A DNA stretch of 48,100 nucleotides from NCBI GenBank assembly GCA_902794005.1, contig CADBFO010000014.1, positions 1 to 48,100 on the forward strand. Reading direction: 5' to 3'. A program made the translations under genes and the position numbers. Source of the DNA: an uncultured Bacteroidia bacterium. Its GTDB lineage: Bacteria > Bacteroidota > Bacteroidia > Bacteroidales > UBA932. A model generated the notes under the pieces. The model ran no database searches. It saw only the letters and a program-made list of their open reading frames with translations, and had not been told where the DNA came from. Shown in pieces: positions 467 through 44,740 of the stretch. Numbering within the stretch: the stretch's first letter is position 1; every line of letters begins with the position of its first letter.

Positions 467-650
467 CTTCCAATTTATCGGTCTCCCGGTTCTTCAGCCG
501 GGGAGAAAAAAAGGTGACCAAAAGTGACCAAATTTTTGGGAAACAAAAAACAAGACTCTGTAAAGAGTTTGTAATGAAGATTCGGAGGCCGAAGGCCGAC
601 CCAGGGGGTCTGGGGGATTAGGCCCCCAGTGAGTCGAAGACTATAGGCGC
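467..650. other. Intergenic stretch with G+C-rich stem-loops, no gene
   Basis: I see no coding region here. It contains an imperfect hairpin (TCTCCCGG/CCGGGGAGA, about 481-505), a near-tandem GTGACCAAA pair about 512-531, and a perfect 7-bp G+C-rich stem CTGGGGG/CCCCCAG (610-616 with 623-629). None is followed by a convincing U-tract on either strand. Function unknown. Confidence 0.4.
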
Positions 651-681
651 AAAAAGAGCTGCGGGTCTCGCAGCTCTTTTT
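651..681. terminator. Bidirectional intrinsic terminator after tRNA-Leu
   Basis: Perfect stem AGAGCTGCG (655-663) / CGCAGCTCT (669-677), loop of five, flanked by A-tract on the left and T-tract on the right, so it has a U-tract on both strands. It starts two bases past the tRNA discriminator base and should end the tRNA-Leu transcript on the minus strand. It could also stop read-through from the left. Confidence 0.85.
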
Positions 682-733
682 GTGCCTCGGGCGGGAATCG
701 AACCCGCACGGCCGTTTCGGGCCAAGGGATTTT

Positions 734-1133
734 CTTGCCACTATGGCTTTCGCCACCGGAAGTGCCATGCGGCACTGAGTTTGTGGTCCGGACTATTCCT
801 TCACCATGGAGCGTAGCTCTTTAGGTGTGTCGTGTCTAGTCTCTGCACCTTCCTCTTTTCGGAGGCTTGGCTCAAGATTACCATCGGCATTACCCGTGAA
901 GGCTTCCTTGAATTTACGACATTCTACATCTCTCTTTTCAGGGAGTGCACTCAAATTTGCCACGTTGACAAGCAGAAGCGTCTCTGGGGCCGATTTTGTG
1001 TCGAAGCGGCAGCAAAATCGAAGGAAAAGGGCATTTTCTTTGCCACGTTGACAAGAAAACGGCCATGGAGGCCATTCTGCTTGTCGAAGCGGCAAACCCC
1101 CTTCGGCGTTCCCGTTTGTCAATGAGCTTGTCT
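734..1133 (-). ncRNA. Group I intron (IC3-like) in tRNA-Leu(UAA)
   Basis: The 400-nt insert ends in the expected terminal guanosine (734). Read on the minus strand it has the full catalytic core. P3 is TGTCGT/ACGACA and P4 is TCAAG/CTTGA. The Q-like tract AATCTTGAGCCAAGCC is followed by a P6a hairpin CCTC/GAGG, then the R-like tract GGTGCAGAGACTAGACACG. P7 is GACTA/TAGTC with an S-like GGAATAGTCC. P8 is CACC/GGTG around GAGC/GCTC, and a P9 hairpin is AGTGCC/GGCACT. These tracts closely resemble cyanobacterial tRNA-Leu introns. I saw no homing endonuclease frame. The intron should self-splice. P1 is the least certain helix: the 5' boundary was fixed by restoring the 7-base anticodon loop. The 5' third is enlarged by two related hairpins. 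Confidence 0.9.
956..1094 (-). repeat. Two tandem 83-nt-spaced hairpin modules inside the intron
   Basis: A 17-base block (TTTGCCACGTTGACAAG, plus strand) occurs at 956-972 and 1039-1055, and a 13-base block (TGTCGAAGCGGCA) at 999-1011 and 1082-1094. Both pairs are 83 bases apart and both copies have exactly 26 bases between blocks. In the RNA each module folds as TGCC/GGCA and GACA/TGTC stems around the same internal loop (GCTTC against AACGT), while the distal stem sequences differ. They sit in the P2 region, before P3. Confidence 0.8.
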
Positions 1134-1180
1134 AAGTCCCTCGTGTCTACCATTCCACCACCAAGGCAAAATGTGGGATG

Positions 1181-1212
1181 CAAAGATAGGGATTTTATAG
1201 CTTTTCTGCAAA
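1181..1212 (-). promoter_or_regulatory. Bacteroidota promoter for tRNA-Leu
   Basis: On the minus strand TTTG (1212-1209), 20 bases, then TATCTTTG (1188-1181): a full match to the Bacteroidota -33/-7 consensus. The -33 box lies inside the last codons of the dehydrogenase gene. Transcription would begin a few bases before the tRNA 5' end at 1167. Confidence 0.8.
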
Positions 1213-34090: not shown

Positions 34091-34732
34091 TCAGTCCACC
34101 ATGACCAGGGCGGCCGAAGGGTGGTTGAAGTGCAGGGAGACCACGGGCTCGGTGGTGCGGTTGAGGCTGGCTTTCCACCAGGCGTCAAAAACCACATCGT
34201 CCAGGGGCCACTGCAGGCCGGTGGAGGTCACTTTCAGTGAATTGTCCGCCGTGAAGAACGAGAATCGGCGGCCTTCGCCCAGGTGGAGGTCGCAGCTGCC
34301 GGTGATGGCAAATGCTGTCCCGAAGTCGGAAACGAGGGAGACCTTCCGTTCTCCCAGGGGGAAAAGGCGGGTGTATTCCATCAGAAGGCCCAGGTTGCCG
34401 ACGGTGTGGTCTTCCCGGAGCCCGGTGGCGCCCAGAATTACGATATCCTGTACCTCGGGATGCTCCCGAAGCACCCAGCTCATGGCTTTGGTAAGATCGT
34501 TGTCGTCCTGCTCGGCCACGGCGACCAGAATGTCGCGGAAGGCATTCTGCTGCTCAGGAGGCAGGGAATCCATGTCGCCTACCACCGCCAACGGCCGGGC
34601 CGACGGGTTATGCGCCAACAGTTTGTTCAACGCCCCGTCGCAGCACACCACCCCTTCGGCGCTGTCCAGCAGATACAGGGGATACGGCTCCGAGGGAAAC
34701 AGTCCGTTGCACAGAATGACGATGCTATTCAT
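34091..34732 (-). CDS. Thiamine pyrophosphokinase
   Basis: A 213-residue enzyme transferring pyrophosphate from ATP to thiamine to give TPP. The catalytic domain has VVCCDGALNKL, AVVGDMDSL and the DDNDLTKAM motif typical of bacterial TPKs, followed by GATGLREDHTVGNL; the C-terminal beta domain binds thiamine. Start at ATG 34732 (MNSIVILCNG), which overlaps the end of the lptG-fmt frame by eight bases; the in-frame ATG 24 bases upstream lies deeper inside that gene. Last gene of the alaS-lptG/fmt-TPK operon. Confidence 0.92.
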   Translation of the reverse strand: MNSIVILCNGLFPSEPYPLYLLDSAEGVVCCDGALNKLLAHNPSARPLAVVGDMDSLPPEQQNAFRDILVAVAEQDDNDLTKAMSWVLREHPEVQDIVILGATGLREDHTVGNLGLLMEYTRLFPLGERKVSLVSDFGTAFAITGSCDLHLGEGRRFSFFTADNSLKVTSTGLQWPLDDVVFDAWWKASLNRTTEPVVSLHFNHPSAALVMVD

Positions 34733-37181
34733 CTTCCTTGGGGGCGGCTTTGGCAATCTCTTCCTTGGATGTGCCGATGGTCACGGTGTAGGACTCCGGG
34801 TTGCGGAAGCCCAGCAGGAAGGCTTTTACGTTCATCCGTTTCTTTCCGCTGAGCTGCAAGTCCGTGATGGCGATGGCGCCGTCCTGCGTGGCTACGGCGA
34901 AGTAGGTCTTGCCGTCACTGAGCACCGTTCCGGGCTCTCCGTGCAGGTCTGTGCGCATTTCCCCGAAGAAGATTTTGAGCTGAACGGGAGATTCTTCGCT
35001 TTGCTCGGAATGACAGAGTTCCGTATAAGCCCCCGGGTAGGGGGACAGGCCGCGGATCAGGTTATAGACGTGCCGGGTGGTATCCCTCCAGTCGATGTGC
35101 TGGAGCTCGCGGGTAATCTTGGGGGCGGGCTTCAGGAGCTCGGAGCCCTGGATGAAGCTACGCTGGACGCGCAGTTCCACGTTTTTCTGCACCAGGCCTT
35201 CCACCGTTTCCACCACCAGCCCGGAACCCAGTTCCATCAGTTTGTCGTGCAGGGTGCCGGCCGTGTCCGTGGGTTCTACCCGGCACTCGGAACGCAGGAT
35301 GATGCCGCCGGTGTCAATCTTCTTGTCAATCATGAAGGTGGTGACACCGGTGATGTTTTCCCCGTTGATGACGGCCCAGTTGATGGGCGCGGCACCGCGG
35401 TACTGCGGCAACAGGGCGGCATGCAGGTTGAAGGTGCCCAGGCGGGGCATGGTCCACACGGCCTCGGGAAGCATGCGGAAGCCCACCACGACAAACAGGT
35501 CGGCCTTCCAGGCGGCGAGGTCTTTGAGGAATTCCTCGTCCTTGAGTTTTTCCGGCTGAAGCAGGGGAAGACCATGCTCCACGGCATATTTCTTGACGGC
35601 GCTCTCATTCATCTTGAGGCCGCGTCCCGACGGTTTGTCGGGAACCGTCACCACGCCCACGATTTGATAACCGTTCCTGATGAGGGCATCCAGCGGGCCC
35701 ACGGAGAATTCCGGCGTGCCCATATAGACAATACGGGTTTTTCTGAACATTCGGAAGAATTTGCTTTTGATTTTTCTGAACCAGCTCTTTACCAGGTCCA
35801 TGTTGAAGATGCTGGCATCCTTGACGGCCTTGACGGTGAGCCAGACACCTATCGGAGTCAGGACAAAGGAAGAAATGAACTTGCCCACGAAGGCGGTGGT
35901 GCTGCCGTTGTTGGCCAGGCGCTCGCCCGTAATGTCCACCACCCAGTACAGCACGAACATGAGCAGCGAGATGATGGCGGGCGTTCCAAGACCGCCCTTT
36001 TTGATAAGCGCGCCCACGGGCGCCCCGATGAAAAAGAGCAGGAAACACACCAGCGCTTTGGTGAATTTGTTCCAGATTTCCACGTCGGTACGGTGGATGA
36101 GACGGGTGTAGTCGGCCGAATCGATAATCTGTCCGTTGGCCATGCTTTCATACTGCTGGGCGTTTCGGCGGGCCTGCTCCAATCCCCGTTTTTTGTCGGC
36201 CGGCGACAGCCAGCGGTCTTCCGAGGGCGGCGGCATTTTGGCGGTTTTGTCCAGCGAACGCCAGGTGGTATCCAGTTGCTGCCGATATCCCACGGAGGTT
36301 TGGCGATGGAATTCCTGCACATGCTTCATCGTGCCTTCATGCACCAGTTTGGACAGCGAATCGTGACCGTGGCGAAGGTCCTTGAGGCCCATGGAGCGCA
36401 CCTGCTCGGAAAAACGCGCGCTGTCGGAATGCTGGAACTTGTAGTTCTCCAGCGGAATCACCATCTCCTGGTTGTGGAAGTGGATGCGTTGCAGGGCAAG
36501 GGTGGTGTCGCGGTACTTCCGGGTGTTGTCCTCCTGGTAGTTGATTCCCTCGAAAAGCTGGAAGGTGAGATAGTCCTTGGCCTTGGACATCTTGATGATG
36601 CCGCTGTCGGCCACGGTGATGCGGGTGTTCCCTTTTCCGGTGGTGTGGTCGTACACCTGGATGTTGTACATCATGCCGGTCTTCTTGTCCCGGCGTTCCA
36701 CCCGGAGGACATACCCTTCGATGCCGTCGTAAAACGTTCCGGTGGGGATTTTGATTTCACTCTTGGTGCGGCCGATGTCGTCACGCATGGTGTAAATCTG
36801 GTTAATGGAGTAGGGAACCAGCCGGTCGCCGATGTAAAAAGCGCCGATGCTGATCAGGACGCTCACCACAATCATGGGCGCCAGGATGCGCATGAGCGAG
36901 ATGCCGGACGCCTTCATGGCGGTGAGTTCGAACTTTTCGCCCATGTCGCCCAGCGTCATCATGGAACTGAGGAGGGTGGCCAGCGGAATGGCCAGCGGCA
37001 GCGTCTGGCAGCTGCCCCACATCAGGAATTCCATGATTACTTTGAACTCAAGGCCTTTCCCCACCAGCTCGTCGATGTACAGCCACAGGAACTGCATGAC
37101 CAGTATGAACGTGACAATCGCGAGGATCGCAAAGAACGGTCCTACAAACGATTTCAGCAAAAACCGGTCGAGTTTTTTCAC
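34725..37181 (-). CDS. fmt: LptG-type permease fused in frame to methionyl-tRNA formyltransferase
   Basis: One uninterrupted 818-codon frame. Residues 1-477 are a YjgP/YjgQ (LptF/LptG) permease of the LPS transporter: N-terminal membrane segments (near 10-35, 55-75 and 100-120), a periplasmic domain, and C-terminal membrane segments (about 385-460). Residues 478-818 are a complete Fmt: TRIVYMGTPEF, PDKPSGRG, the catalytic FNLHAALLPQYRG (Asn/His) with the downstream IDTGG aspartate, and a C-terminal OB-like domain. Fmt formylates Met-tRNA for initiation. No stop separates them. An ATG at 35750 (MFRKTRIV) could start a free Fmt, so the message may yield a fusion, free Fmt, or both. Residues about 722-731 derive from a dispersed repeat. 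Three bases after alaS. Confidence 0.9.
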   Translation of the reverse strand: MKKLDRFLLKSFVGPFFAILAIVTFILVMQFLWLYIDELVGKGLEFKVIMEFLMWGSCQTLPLAIPLATLLSSMMTLGDMGEKFELTAMKASGISLMRILAPMIVVSVLISIGAFYIGDRLVPYSINQIYTMRDDIGRTKSEIKIPTGTFYDGIEGYVLRVERRDKKTGMMYNIQVYDHTTGKGNTRITVADSGIIKMSKAKDYLTFQLFEGINYQEDNTRKYRDTTLALQRIHFHNQEMVIPLENYKFQHSDSARFSEQVRSMGLKDLRHGHDSLSKLVHEGTMKHVQEFHRQTSVGYRQQLDTTWRSLDKTAKMPPPSEDRWLSPADKKRGLEQARRNAQQYESMANGQIIDSADYTRLIHRTDVEIWNKFTKALVCFLLFFIGAPVGALIKKGGLGTPAIISLLMFVLYWVVDITGERLANNGSTTAFVGKFISSFVLTPIGVWLTVKAVKDASIFNMDLVKSWFRKIKSKFFRMFRKTRIVYMGTPEFSVGPLDALIRNGYQIVGVVTVPDKPSGRGLKMNESAVKKYAVEHGLPLLQPEKLKDEEFLKDLAAWKADLFVVVGFRMLPEAVWTMPRLGTFNLHAALLPQYRGAAPINWAVINGENITGVTTFMIDKKIDTGGIILRSECRVEPTDTAGTLHDKLMELGSGLVVETVEGLVQKNVELRVQRSFIQGSELLKPAPKITRELQHIDWRDTTRHVYNLIRGLSPYPGAYTELCHSEQSEESPVQLKIFFGEMRTDLHGEPGTVLSDGKTYFAVATQDGAIAITDLQLSGKKRMNVKAFLLGFRNPESYTVTIGTSKEEIAKAAPKEDE
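34990..35015 (-). repeat. Dispersed 26-base repeat, copy 3, inside the fmt coding region
   Basis: On the minus strand it reads TGTCATTCCGAGC... ending CGAAGAATC and encodes CHSEQSEES in frame, in a variable loop of the Fmt C-terminal domain between YTEL and VQLKIFF. Confidence 0.8.
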
Positions 37182-43227: not shown

Positions 43228-43240
43228 CCGTCCCAAAAAT

Positions 43241-43290
43241 ATGTGGATAGATTTGGATTGCTTGCAACCACGTTAAAAAATGCTAAAATT
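43241..43290 (+). promoter_or_regulatory. SAM-II-type riboswitch aptamer upstream of metK
   Basis: P1 forms from ATGTGG (43241-43246) and CCACGT (43268-43273). Its 21-base loop holds GATTT and TTGCAA, and the 3' strand is followed by A-rich TTAAAAAA and GCTAAAA (43282-43288). This matches the SAM-II layout as I recall it: P1, loop with GAUUU...UUGCAA, P1', AUAAAUG-like, GCUAAAA. SAM binding would form an H-type pseudoknot holding GCTAAAA. The downstream gene makes SAM, so feedback repression is expected. Confidence 0.8.
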
Positions 43291-43315
43291 ACATTTCATA
43301 TCAGTGTTTTGTGTT

Positions 43316-43350
43316 TTAGCCTCCGCATATAGTCCGGGGCTAATTTTTTT
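43316..43350 (+). terminator. Riboswitch-controlled terminator in the metK leader
   Basis: Stem TTAGCCTC (43316-43323) / GGGGCTAA (43336-43343) followed by seven T. The 5' arm region TTTTAGC (43314-43320) is exactly complementary to GCTAAAA (43282-43288) in the aptamer, giving a mutually exclusive antiterminator. Two further G+C-rich hairpins lie downstream (about 43351-43417). Confidence 0.8.
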
Positions 43351-43435
43351 ACTGCCTTCCCCTGGTTCGCGGCAGGCCCTCGTGCACGAAAGCGGTGTAC
43401 GGGACAGGAGAAGACGCAAAAATGATACAAACAAA

Positions 43436-44740
43436 ATGAAGAATTATTTATTCACATCCGAATCTGTCAGCGAAGGCCATCCGGACAAAGTGGCCGACCA
43501 GATCAGCGACGCCATCCTGGACCAGTTCCTGATGCAGGATCCCGAGTCCAAGGTGGCCTGCGAGAGTTTCTGCTCCACCGGTATGGTGGTGGTCATGGGT
43601 GAGGTAAAGGCCGAAGCCTATGTCGATATCCAGACCACCGTCCGCGACACCATCCGCAAAATCGGCTATACCAAGGCCGACTATATGTTCGACGCTTCCA
43701 GCTGCGGCGTTTTAAGCGCCCTCCACGAGCAGAGCGCCGACATCAACCGCGGCGTGGAGCGGGCCCGGGAAGAAGAGCAGGGTGCCGGCGACCAGGGCAT
43801 GATGTTCGGCTATGCCTGCCGCGACACCGAGGACTATATGCCCCTCCCGCTGTATCTGAGCCACAAGCTCCTGGAGATTCTGGCCGATATCCGGCACAAC
43901 CAGCTGCATCTGATGCCCTACCTTCGGCCCGATGCCAAGAGCCAGTTCACCATCGAGTACGACGGAGAGACCCACCAGCCCGTGAAGGTGCATACCATTG
44001 TCCTGAGCACCCAGCACGACGAATTCGTCCCGGAAAGCCTGGGCCGCATGCGTTATGCCGATGCCGTGGCCCAGTTCGGCCAGGACAAGGTGGACCGGGC
44101 CATGCAGGAAAAAATCCGCTTCGATGTGGAGACAATTCTTATCCCGCGTCTCAAGGAATCCCTGAGCCCGGAAACAGCCCGGCTCATCCACAGTTTTGTG
44201 CTACACGTGAATCCCACGGGCAAGTTCGTGATTGGCGGCCCCCACGGAGACACCGGCCTCACGGGCCGTAAGATCATCGTGGACACCTATGGCGGCAAGG
44301 GCGCCCACGGCGGCGGAGCCTTCTCCGGAAAAGACCCTTCCAAGGTGGACCGCAGCGCGGCCTATGCCGCCCGCTACATCGCCAAAAACCTGGTGGCGGC
44401 CGGCGTGGCCGACGAGTGCCTGGTACAGCTGGCCTATGCCATTGGTGTAGCCCAGCCCGTGAGCGTGTTCGTGGATACGTACGGATCGGCCAAAAACGGC
44501 CTTTCCGACGCGGAGATCGCCCGGAAGATCAAGTCTCTGTTCGACCTCACCCCCGCCGGCATCATTCGCAAGTTCGGTCTCAAGAACCCCATCTACGCCC
44601 CTACCGCCGCCTACGGCCACATGGGCCGCAAGCCCTACACCAAGGCGGTGACGGTTCAGGGAAAAAGCAAGATTGTGCAGTTCTTCGGCTGGGAGCTGCT
44701 GGACAGCGTCCCGGCGGTGAAGGCCGCGTTCGGGTTGTAA
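43436..44740 (+). CDS. metK: MetK, S-adenosylmethionine synthetase
   Basis: A 434-residue enzyme making SAM from methionine and ATP. N-terminal [22 protein letters not shown], the [13 protein letters not shown] motif and [15 protein letters not shown] are diagnostic. Start ATG 43436 follows from the conserved N-terminus; the frame is open 52 codons upstream but that sequence is the riboswitch and terminator. Single gene under SAM-II-type control, ending at a shared terminator with the TonB receptor. Confidence 0.98.

Follow-up and report, generated by a model that had tools for sequence, protein, structure and literature searches.

The intron of the cyanobacterial tRNA-Leu(UAA) gene is the standard example of an old, inherited, non-moving intron, and it is usually taken to be free of an endonuclease. 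It is inserted, as we take it, between U34 and A35. The endonuclease of the Synechocystis tRNA-fMet intron has another fold than HNH, and the phage endonuclease SegB is a GIY-YIG enzyme, not an HNH enzyme.

Group I introns in tRNA genes have been catalogued in cyanobacteria, in alpha- and beta-proteobacteria and in plastids (PMC4033280), and they have been noted in circularised metagenomic genomes, most of which were CPR (PMC8172020). SegB is described as a free-standing endonuclease beside phage tRNA genes (PMC13096335). According to a 2014 review, every phage intron observed by then lay in a protein-coding gene (PMC3984707). The first reported phage tRNA introns came from the Lak megaphages of Prevotella and were called enigmatic (Devoto 2019, PMC6784885). 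The interrupted tRNAs named were Tyr and Thr, and the accessible text of that article gives no intron class. According to its own description, the detection of group I introns in tRNAs was not a design aim of tRNAscan-SE 2.0 (PMC8450103). Our literature search, which mostly left subscription journals aside, found no report of group I introns in tRNA-Leu genes of Bacteroidota.

We analyzed a stretch of 48,100 nucleotides (the window) from a Bacteroidota genome whose genus we took to be Candidatus Cryptobacteroides. Comparative analysis of the sequences suggested that its tRNA-Leu(UAA) gene very probably contains a splicing-competent group I intron of a mobile HNH lineage that has lost its endonuclease, with phages as the likely carriers.

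An interrupted tRNA-Leu(UAA) gene

With introns allowed, ARAGORN called a tRNA-Leu (taa) at c[682,1167] on the minus strand with an intron of 400 nt. Without introns, it called no tRNA in the window. A preliminary description of this DNA had warned that automatic annotation might miss the gene, and plain tRNA calling did miss it. The gene is a class II tRNA-Leu(UAA) that runs from 1167 to 683 on the minus strand and is split between U34 and A35. Its parts and neighboring signals, in window coordinates, are as follows.

1181..1212, minus strand: promoter-like element TTTG-N20-TATCTTTG upstream of the tRNA (sequence motif)
1134..1167, minus strand: 5' exon of tRNA-Leu(UAA), position 1 to U34 (ARAGORN, sequence reading and uninterrupted alleles)
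734..1133, minus strand: group I intron of 400 nt, first base A, last base G (sub-threshold but significant RF00028 match at 773-971, R1 score and covariation in relatives)
683..733, minus strand: 3' exon of tRNA-Leu(UAA), from A35 through the discriminator base, with no encoded CCA (ARAGORN and sequence)
650..681, minus strand: terminator-like hairpin and T run directly after the tRNA (by eye)

The rejoined exons gave GGACTTAAAATCC, a tRNA-Leu with anticodon UAA. This is the exact sequence of the uninterrupted alleles in five congeners, and it was also present in each of the 17 loci, out of 20 retrieved stretches, for which ARAGORN gave an uninterrupted call. The ARAGORN call and these intronless alleles, together with the covarying fold described below, upheld the original proposal of a group I intron at U34|A35 of a Bacteroidota tRNA-Leu(UAA). 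The TTTG-N20-TATCTTTG type is presumably the Bacteroidota promoter consensus.

The preliminary description had allowed for an uninterrupted tRNA-Leu(UAA) elsewhere in the genome, in which case the interrupted one would be a pseudogene. No second tRNA-Leu(UAA) was present among 39 above-cutoff tRNA matches from this genome, a 2.06-Mb MAG of 88.96% completeness that has the window as its contig 14 and may have an unassembled second copy. Besides the window gene, the Leu anticodons found were CAA, UAG, GAG and CAG. As there is no other UAA tRNA among them, UUA codons should need the window gene. These codons were very rare (1 TTA among the 3,553 codons of six window genes).

Several genomes had contigs ending within a few hundred bases of the tRNA-Leu(UAA) 3' end (positions 1-683 in the window, and relatives). 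Such ends perhaps mark a repeat or an integration site.

Fold of the intron

RF00028 matched 773-971 of the window on the minus strand at 43.1 bits, with an E-value of 1.6e-9 for the 851 bp searched and 9.1e-10 for the whole genome. A search of the insert with this model had been proposed as a check. The match was significant, and it stayed below the Rfam gathering score of 50. A minimal relative (L037) scored 53.0 with RF00028, above the gathering score. Because the E-value was significant and the minimal relative reached 53.0, we read the sub-threshold score as a sensitivity limit. With 43.1 bits being below 50, a standard Rfam scan omits the intron, and the scan of the window at the gathering threshold listed a SAM-II riboswitch and nothing else. 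We also used R1, a covariance model of the intron core built from 27 rows; the window intron, which was itself among these training rows, scored 168.7 bits.

The SAM-II riboswitch (43237-43296, 60.5 bits) was located at the start of a metK frame (43280-44740), as expected of a metK leader. Elsewhere in the window, a single frame of 818 aa (34725-37181) matched LptF/LptG permease and formyltransferase domains and is a possible fusion.

The window sequence formed P1, P3, P4, P5a, P6, P6a, P7, P8 and four P9 pairs, with one C.A mismatch in P2 and one U.U mismatch in P5. Every pairing initially seen (P3, P4, P6a, P7, P8 and P9) was among them. The elements of the fold are located as follows.

949..952, minus strand: internal guide GAGU, pairing with exon ACUU (1137-1134) as P1 with a U34.G wobble
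791..921, minus strand: ribozyme core, P3 to P8 (sequence and covariation in relatives)
921-916/833-828, minus strand: P3 of the core
912-907/876-871, minus strand: P4 of the core
841-837/795-791, minus strand: P7 of the core
827-824/805-802, minus strand: P8 of the core
738..786, minus strand: P9 with a GAAA-capped inner hairpin (sequence and covariation in relatives)

The fold was assessed in an alignment of 54 minimal pre-tRNAs of relatives, with the window left out. For this alignment, 68 distinct minimal introns were thinned to 58 and then to the 54 having full exons. The P1-P9 structure with the P3/P7 pseudoknot contained 51 pairs, and 98.0% of the 2,754 cells were paired. Changes on both sides occurred in 15 of the 51 pairs (111 cells). 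None of 500 shuffles reached any of the five fold measures, and sliding the partner strands by 1-3 columns lowered the pairing to 33.5-39.6%. A pair in P3 was exchanged between U-A and C-G (37 and 17 of the 54 relatives), and one in P5a between A-U and G-C (29 and 23 of 54). P1, P6 and P7 were invariant and P4 varied just by mismatches at one end pair, so the covariation support came from P2, P3, P5/P5a, P6a, P8 and P9.

The core helices P3, P4, P6, P7 and P8 were all present, with compensatory support in relatives. P1 was ACUU/GAGU in all 54 relatives, with the U34.G pair at the 5' splice site. With the 3' end defined by AAAATCCC, every one of the 144 complete introns had G as its last base. 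Folded freely, the entire pre-tRNA was more stable than shuffles (z -3.14, 1 of 100 as stable). We conclude that the insert is a group I intron, presumably of subgroup IC3, and predict that it is self-splicing.

HNH endonucleases in the L1 loop of relatives

We read 162 intron loci, of which 130 were distinct, contig-cut ones included. There were 144 complete introns, 114 of them distinct, and the lengths of the latter were 211-234 nt (68 introns), 245-641 nt (18) and 722-752 nt (28). In the long form (722-752 nt), a frame was located between the 5' splice site and the guide sequence, that is, in L1, and extended into the core. It encodes an HNH endonuclease (PF01844, E 1.4e-5; PHROG 10822, E 4e-47), mostly of 183-207 aa. 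The gene was full length in 26 of the 28 distinct long introns; the copy in L041 is frameshifted and that in L133 starts late. Among all 162 loci, 32 genes were full length (29 distinct) and 17 were broken, remnants or cut by a contig end.

The residues of the Cys4/HNH site (C101, C104, H120, N132, C137, C140 and H141) were kept in all 47 full-length HNH proteins, 18 of which belong to viral contigs, to a phage record or to the distant L227. The dN/dS was 0.07-0.09 in 5 of 406 pairs, those having a dS of 0.1-1.2; as judged from these comparisons, the HNH genes are under purifying selection where measurable. Among solved structures, the best match to the HNH protein had an E-value of 0.14. A strict promoter motif was found in 9 of the 28 long introns (mononucleotide shuffles gave a mean of 0.03 and a maximum of 2).

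In the window copy, the corresponding region has a different content.

953..1133, minus strand: L1 loop, where relatives have the HNH gene; no endonuclease in this copy (comparison with relatives)
955..1097, minus strand: dispersed hairpin repeat in L1 (genome search)

At E<=0.01, the repeat matched elsewhere in the genome in 16 additional rows, all on other contigs. The first ~20 nt of the window intron resembled, by eye, the conserved start of HNH-bearing introns. A tblastn search of the window's own intron (L032) gave no HNH match at E<=1e-5. The endonuclease gene of a homing intron is found in the relatives and not in the window copy, which is of the decayed kind: its endonuclease is gone, and L1 is filled by the dispersed repeat. 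The 400-nt insert with a group I core, as initially described, was confirmed, with the amendment that its first ~180 nt are an L1 stretch holding a repeat where relatives have the endonuclease gene.

Patchy presence and transfer in Candidatus Cryptobacteroides

The genus was sampled with 400 genomes. With a minimal pre-tRNA as query, the main-lineage intron core was found in at least 124 of them. This minimum was hand-counted from rows of at least 133 bits that reached into the core; it leaves out G175, whose 138-bit match is to a 3' remnant, as well as genomes in which the sequence is cut within the HNH gene (G004 and G181, for example). Some pre-tRNA match, often to the exons alone, was present in 351 of the 400 genomes. 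A core pattern was present in at least 119 stretches of named genomes, titled Bacteroidales, Bacteroidia or families therein and in one case just Bacterium. Among the matches listed, the source was ruminant or horse gut wherever the title gave one.

To relate the intron to its hosts, an alaS tree was used with 60 genus genomes that had been selected for their intron state instead of randomly (36 carry the intron, 20 have an empty site and 4 a divergent intron). The intron label changed 15 times, at least 11 of them forced by starred branches, on a tree from one gene and a quick method in which 25 of 57 inner branches were open and label changes count gain and loss alike. Shuffled labels changed 19.2 times on average, and 12 of 500 shuffles were as low as 15; intron presence is thus only weakly tied to host kinship. 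The window genome's relative G385, with 93% identical AlaRS, had an empty site. Core and host distances correlated with a Spearman coefficient of 0.29 (2 of 2000 shuffles as high; n=32, which omits three genomes whose alaS was partial and a fourth for which no intron had been retrieved), indicating that part of the intron history is vertical.

G089 and G313 had identical cores, and their AlaRS proteins were 26.4% apart. The identity spanned both exons and the core, whereas three bases at the start of L1 and the adjoining flanks differed. The shared stretch returned ~75 nt downstream, so the flanks are not wholly unrelated. Such a pattern is what co-conversion in homing would leave; alternatively, the tRNA gene could have been exchanged through another kind of recombination. 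Two records that have Candidatus Cacconaster in their titles contained the same intron within a tRNA-Leu of different backbone, as did a third locus (L161) with the tRNA type of the Cacconaster records.

Some genomes contained more than one form. G169 and G237 had both interrupted and intact tRNA-Leu(UAA), on different contigs. On contig 7 of G175 (L267 and L268), an uninterrupted tRNA-Leu(UAA) and a decayed intron-bearing half were ~7 kb apart; judging from these two genes, intron loss may go via replacement. Four Cryptobacteroides genomes (G021, G178, G241 and G140) had a divergent second intron lineage at the same site (L047, L272, L273 and L274). A second match in L218 was rejected as a chance hit of a loose pattern.

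Errors in MAG binning could inflate the patchiness. The preliminary description had asked whether the intron was inherited or horizontally acquired. Within the genus, its sequences lean clearly to mobile, with a patchy presence, endonuclease-bearing siblings, a core common to distant hosts and phage relatives, next to the vertical part seen in the distance correlation.

Introns in other Bacteroidota and plasmids

R1 matched 3 of 393 genomes in an order sample and 29 of 395 in a phylum sample, each count including the own genome and each search using stricter filters that lose weak matches. In other Bacteroidota (L221-L251), group I cores were observed in several tRNAs, and some genomes had two. 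ARAGORN with introns suggested Leu, Arg, Ser, Gln, Ile and Thr tRNAs around the phylum cores, with anticodons that depend on the guessed splice site. By eye, L224 and L227 look split at U33|U34. L227 also contained an HNH gene of the same family within its tRNA-Leu intron. In plasmids, an HNH was present in one record, and 1,267 records matched parts of the intron at 60-80%.

Relatives in phages

The core motif was found in 12 IMG/VR contigs, and ARAGORN called an interrupted tRNA-Leu(taa) in five (L279, L280, L282, L283 and L285). L279 and L280 had the same sequence at the intron, and likewise L282 and L283. L278 and L286 exceeded the RF00028 cutoff and, by eye, look like introns in protein genes.

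HNH relatives were present in 32 viral contigs, representing 22 non-redundant loci. At five of these 22 (L290, L291, L293, L294 and L302), the HNH gene was inside an interrupted tRNA-Leu(taa), and all five had an R1 core. The core was also present in L295, where no interrupted tRNA was called, and in L310, where a Ser tRNA was called. No core was detected with R1 at E 0.01 in the remaining 15 loci, so their HNH genes look free-standing. The nearest uninterrupted tRNA was a tRNA-Leu of any anticodon in 13 of the 17 loci without an interrupted tRNA-Leu, with 6.6 expected (P 4.5e-5). L295, L299, L310 and L321 were the exceptions. Of the 13 loci, four have Leu as their sole kind of tRNA and carry no weight. 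A terminase was found in five of nine intron or HNH viral records and was absent from L279, L280, L283 and L290, which may be fragments. In L310 (2818-3694), a viral HNH gene and a group I core were inside an interrupted tRNA-Ser(tga) called by ARAGORN; judging from this locus, the HNH/intron family may also have reached tRNA-Ser.

Among GenBank phages, 80 of 50,697 records matched. By their listed features, the 44 Staphylococcus matches and the annotated matches of Pseudoalteromonas resemble introns of protein-coding genes. LR756501 (735 kb) and LR756511 (595 kb) had an interrupted tRNA-Leu(taa). In LR756511 (L323, 2368-3154), an HNH gene of the same family was observed in the tRNA-Leu(taa) intron, where its location points to the P6 loop and not to L1. 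The Prevotella phages Lak-B1 and Lak-C1 (L324, 1315-2085, and L326, 1325-2085) had a tRNA-Leu seemingly holding two introns. R1 matched one core in it, in the D-loop part; the anticodon core was seen by eye alone, and Rfam reported neither core in these stretches. No interrupted tRNA was called in the crAss-like matches L325 and L327. A cyanobacterial-type intron pattern had 0 matches in viral contigs.

In a tree of the cores (139 columns), which has many open forks and an unsettled bootstrap, the phage introns L282, L285 and L288 were placed among the Cryptobacteroides cores (98/95); no tRNA was called around L288 despite its tree label, phage_tRNA. The HNH tree placed the proteins of Cryptobacteroides and Cacconaster in a single clade (100*) separate from the viral proteins, and L227 was among the latter. 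With relatives of the endonuclease at phage tRNA-Leu genes, we infer that phages are likely carriers of the intron.

Discussion

The following course of events would fit the anatomy of the locus. In the transcript, the intron would fold, with the guide GAGU pairing with exon ACUU as P1. Guanosine would be used for the cut after U34, and the joining of U34 to A35 would leave a normal tRNA. In full-length members, the HNH enzyme from L1 most likely cuts the intronless tRNA-Leu(UAA) gene, and the intron would then be copied in by gene conversion together with part of the exon, as the transfer pattern also suggests. Phages would serve as its vehicles. The window copy should splice, and it should not home by itself because the endonuclease gene is gone and L1 contains a dispersed repeat.

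The same site could also have been occupied since ancient times, by an intron inherited vertically as in cyanobacteria and plastids and repeatedly lost in Cryptobacteroides. We consider this unlikely. It would account for the shared U34|A35 position, for the weak but real correlation between core and host distances and for the tRNA introns in other Bacteroidota (28 of 394 genomes besides the own one). However, within the order, just 2 of the 392 genomes sampled besides the own one matched (a search with stricter filters that lose weak matches), and the core and 3' exon are identical in distant hosts whose adjoining flanks differ. The purifying selection on HNH genes, where measurable, and the occurrence of the same intron under another genus name in another tRNA backbone also argue against this history and are consistent with a mobile intron.

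A quite improbable alternative is that the interrupted gene is a pseudogene that yields no tRNA and that UUA is read by a copy absent from the assembly. The exons, P1 and the core are conserved, a promoter-like element and a terminator-like hairpin are present, and no other UAA tRNA was found in the genome. These points outweigh, in our judgment, the completeness of 89%, the rarity of UUA, the presence of both forms in G237 and G169 and the decayed half gene of G175. It is hardly credible that the insert is a chance or repeat-derived insertion instead of a group I intron. A dispersed repeat does sit in L1, but minimal relatives without the repeat retain the core, the RF00028 match is significant, and the compensatory changes in relatives already contradict such an origin.

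Under the favored reading of a mobile intron, the tRNA site best known for the old cyanobacterial intron would here be home to a mobile element. Introns at the same site with selected endonucleases, empty sites, decayed forms and phage relatives, mostly in one genus, make the life cycle of a tRNA intron directly testable. The system offers a route for intron entry into a tRNA gene, explains how carrier genomes can seem to be without tRNA-Leu(UAA), and may give a class to some of the "enigmatic" phage tRNA introns. Because HNH genes are inside interrupted tRNA-Leu(UAA) at five of the 22 viral loci and tRNA-Leu is nearest at 13 of the other 17, a phage-borne homing intron can be tentatively envisaged. 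In that case, the textbook tRNA-Leu intron of cyanobacteria could be a relic of such an element that became fixed, a possibility that we put somewhat below even.

The intron is a known kind of element with a mobile life style, in a host group for which we found no report; it is not a new class. The Synechocystis tRNA-fMet intron also has its own endonuclease and is in a different tRNA. The SegB gene resembles the phage HNH genes in adjoining tRNA genes, as far as its description goes, and differs in not being intron-borne. The Lak phages share the feature of interrupted tRNAs with the published account in its accessible part; the difference is that the tRNA here is the tRNA-Leu of Lak-B1 and Lak-C1, with one R1-matched core. 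The cyanobacterial tRNA-Leu intron has the same tRNA, the same U34|A35 site and a small group I core, a likeness of position, whereas the Cryptobacteroides intron has a patchy distribution, and its L1 either contains an HNH gene or no longer does.
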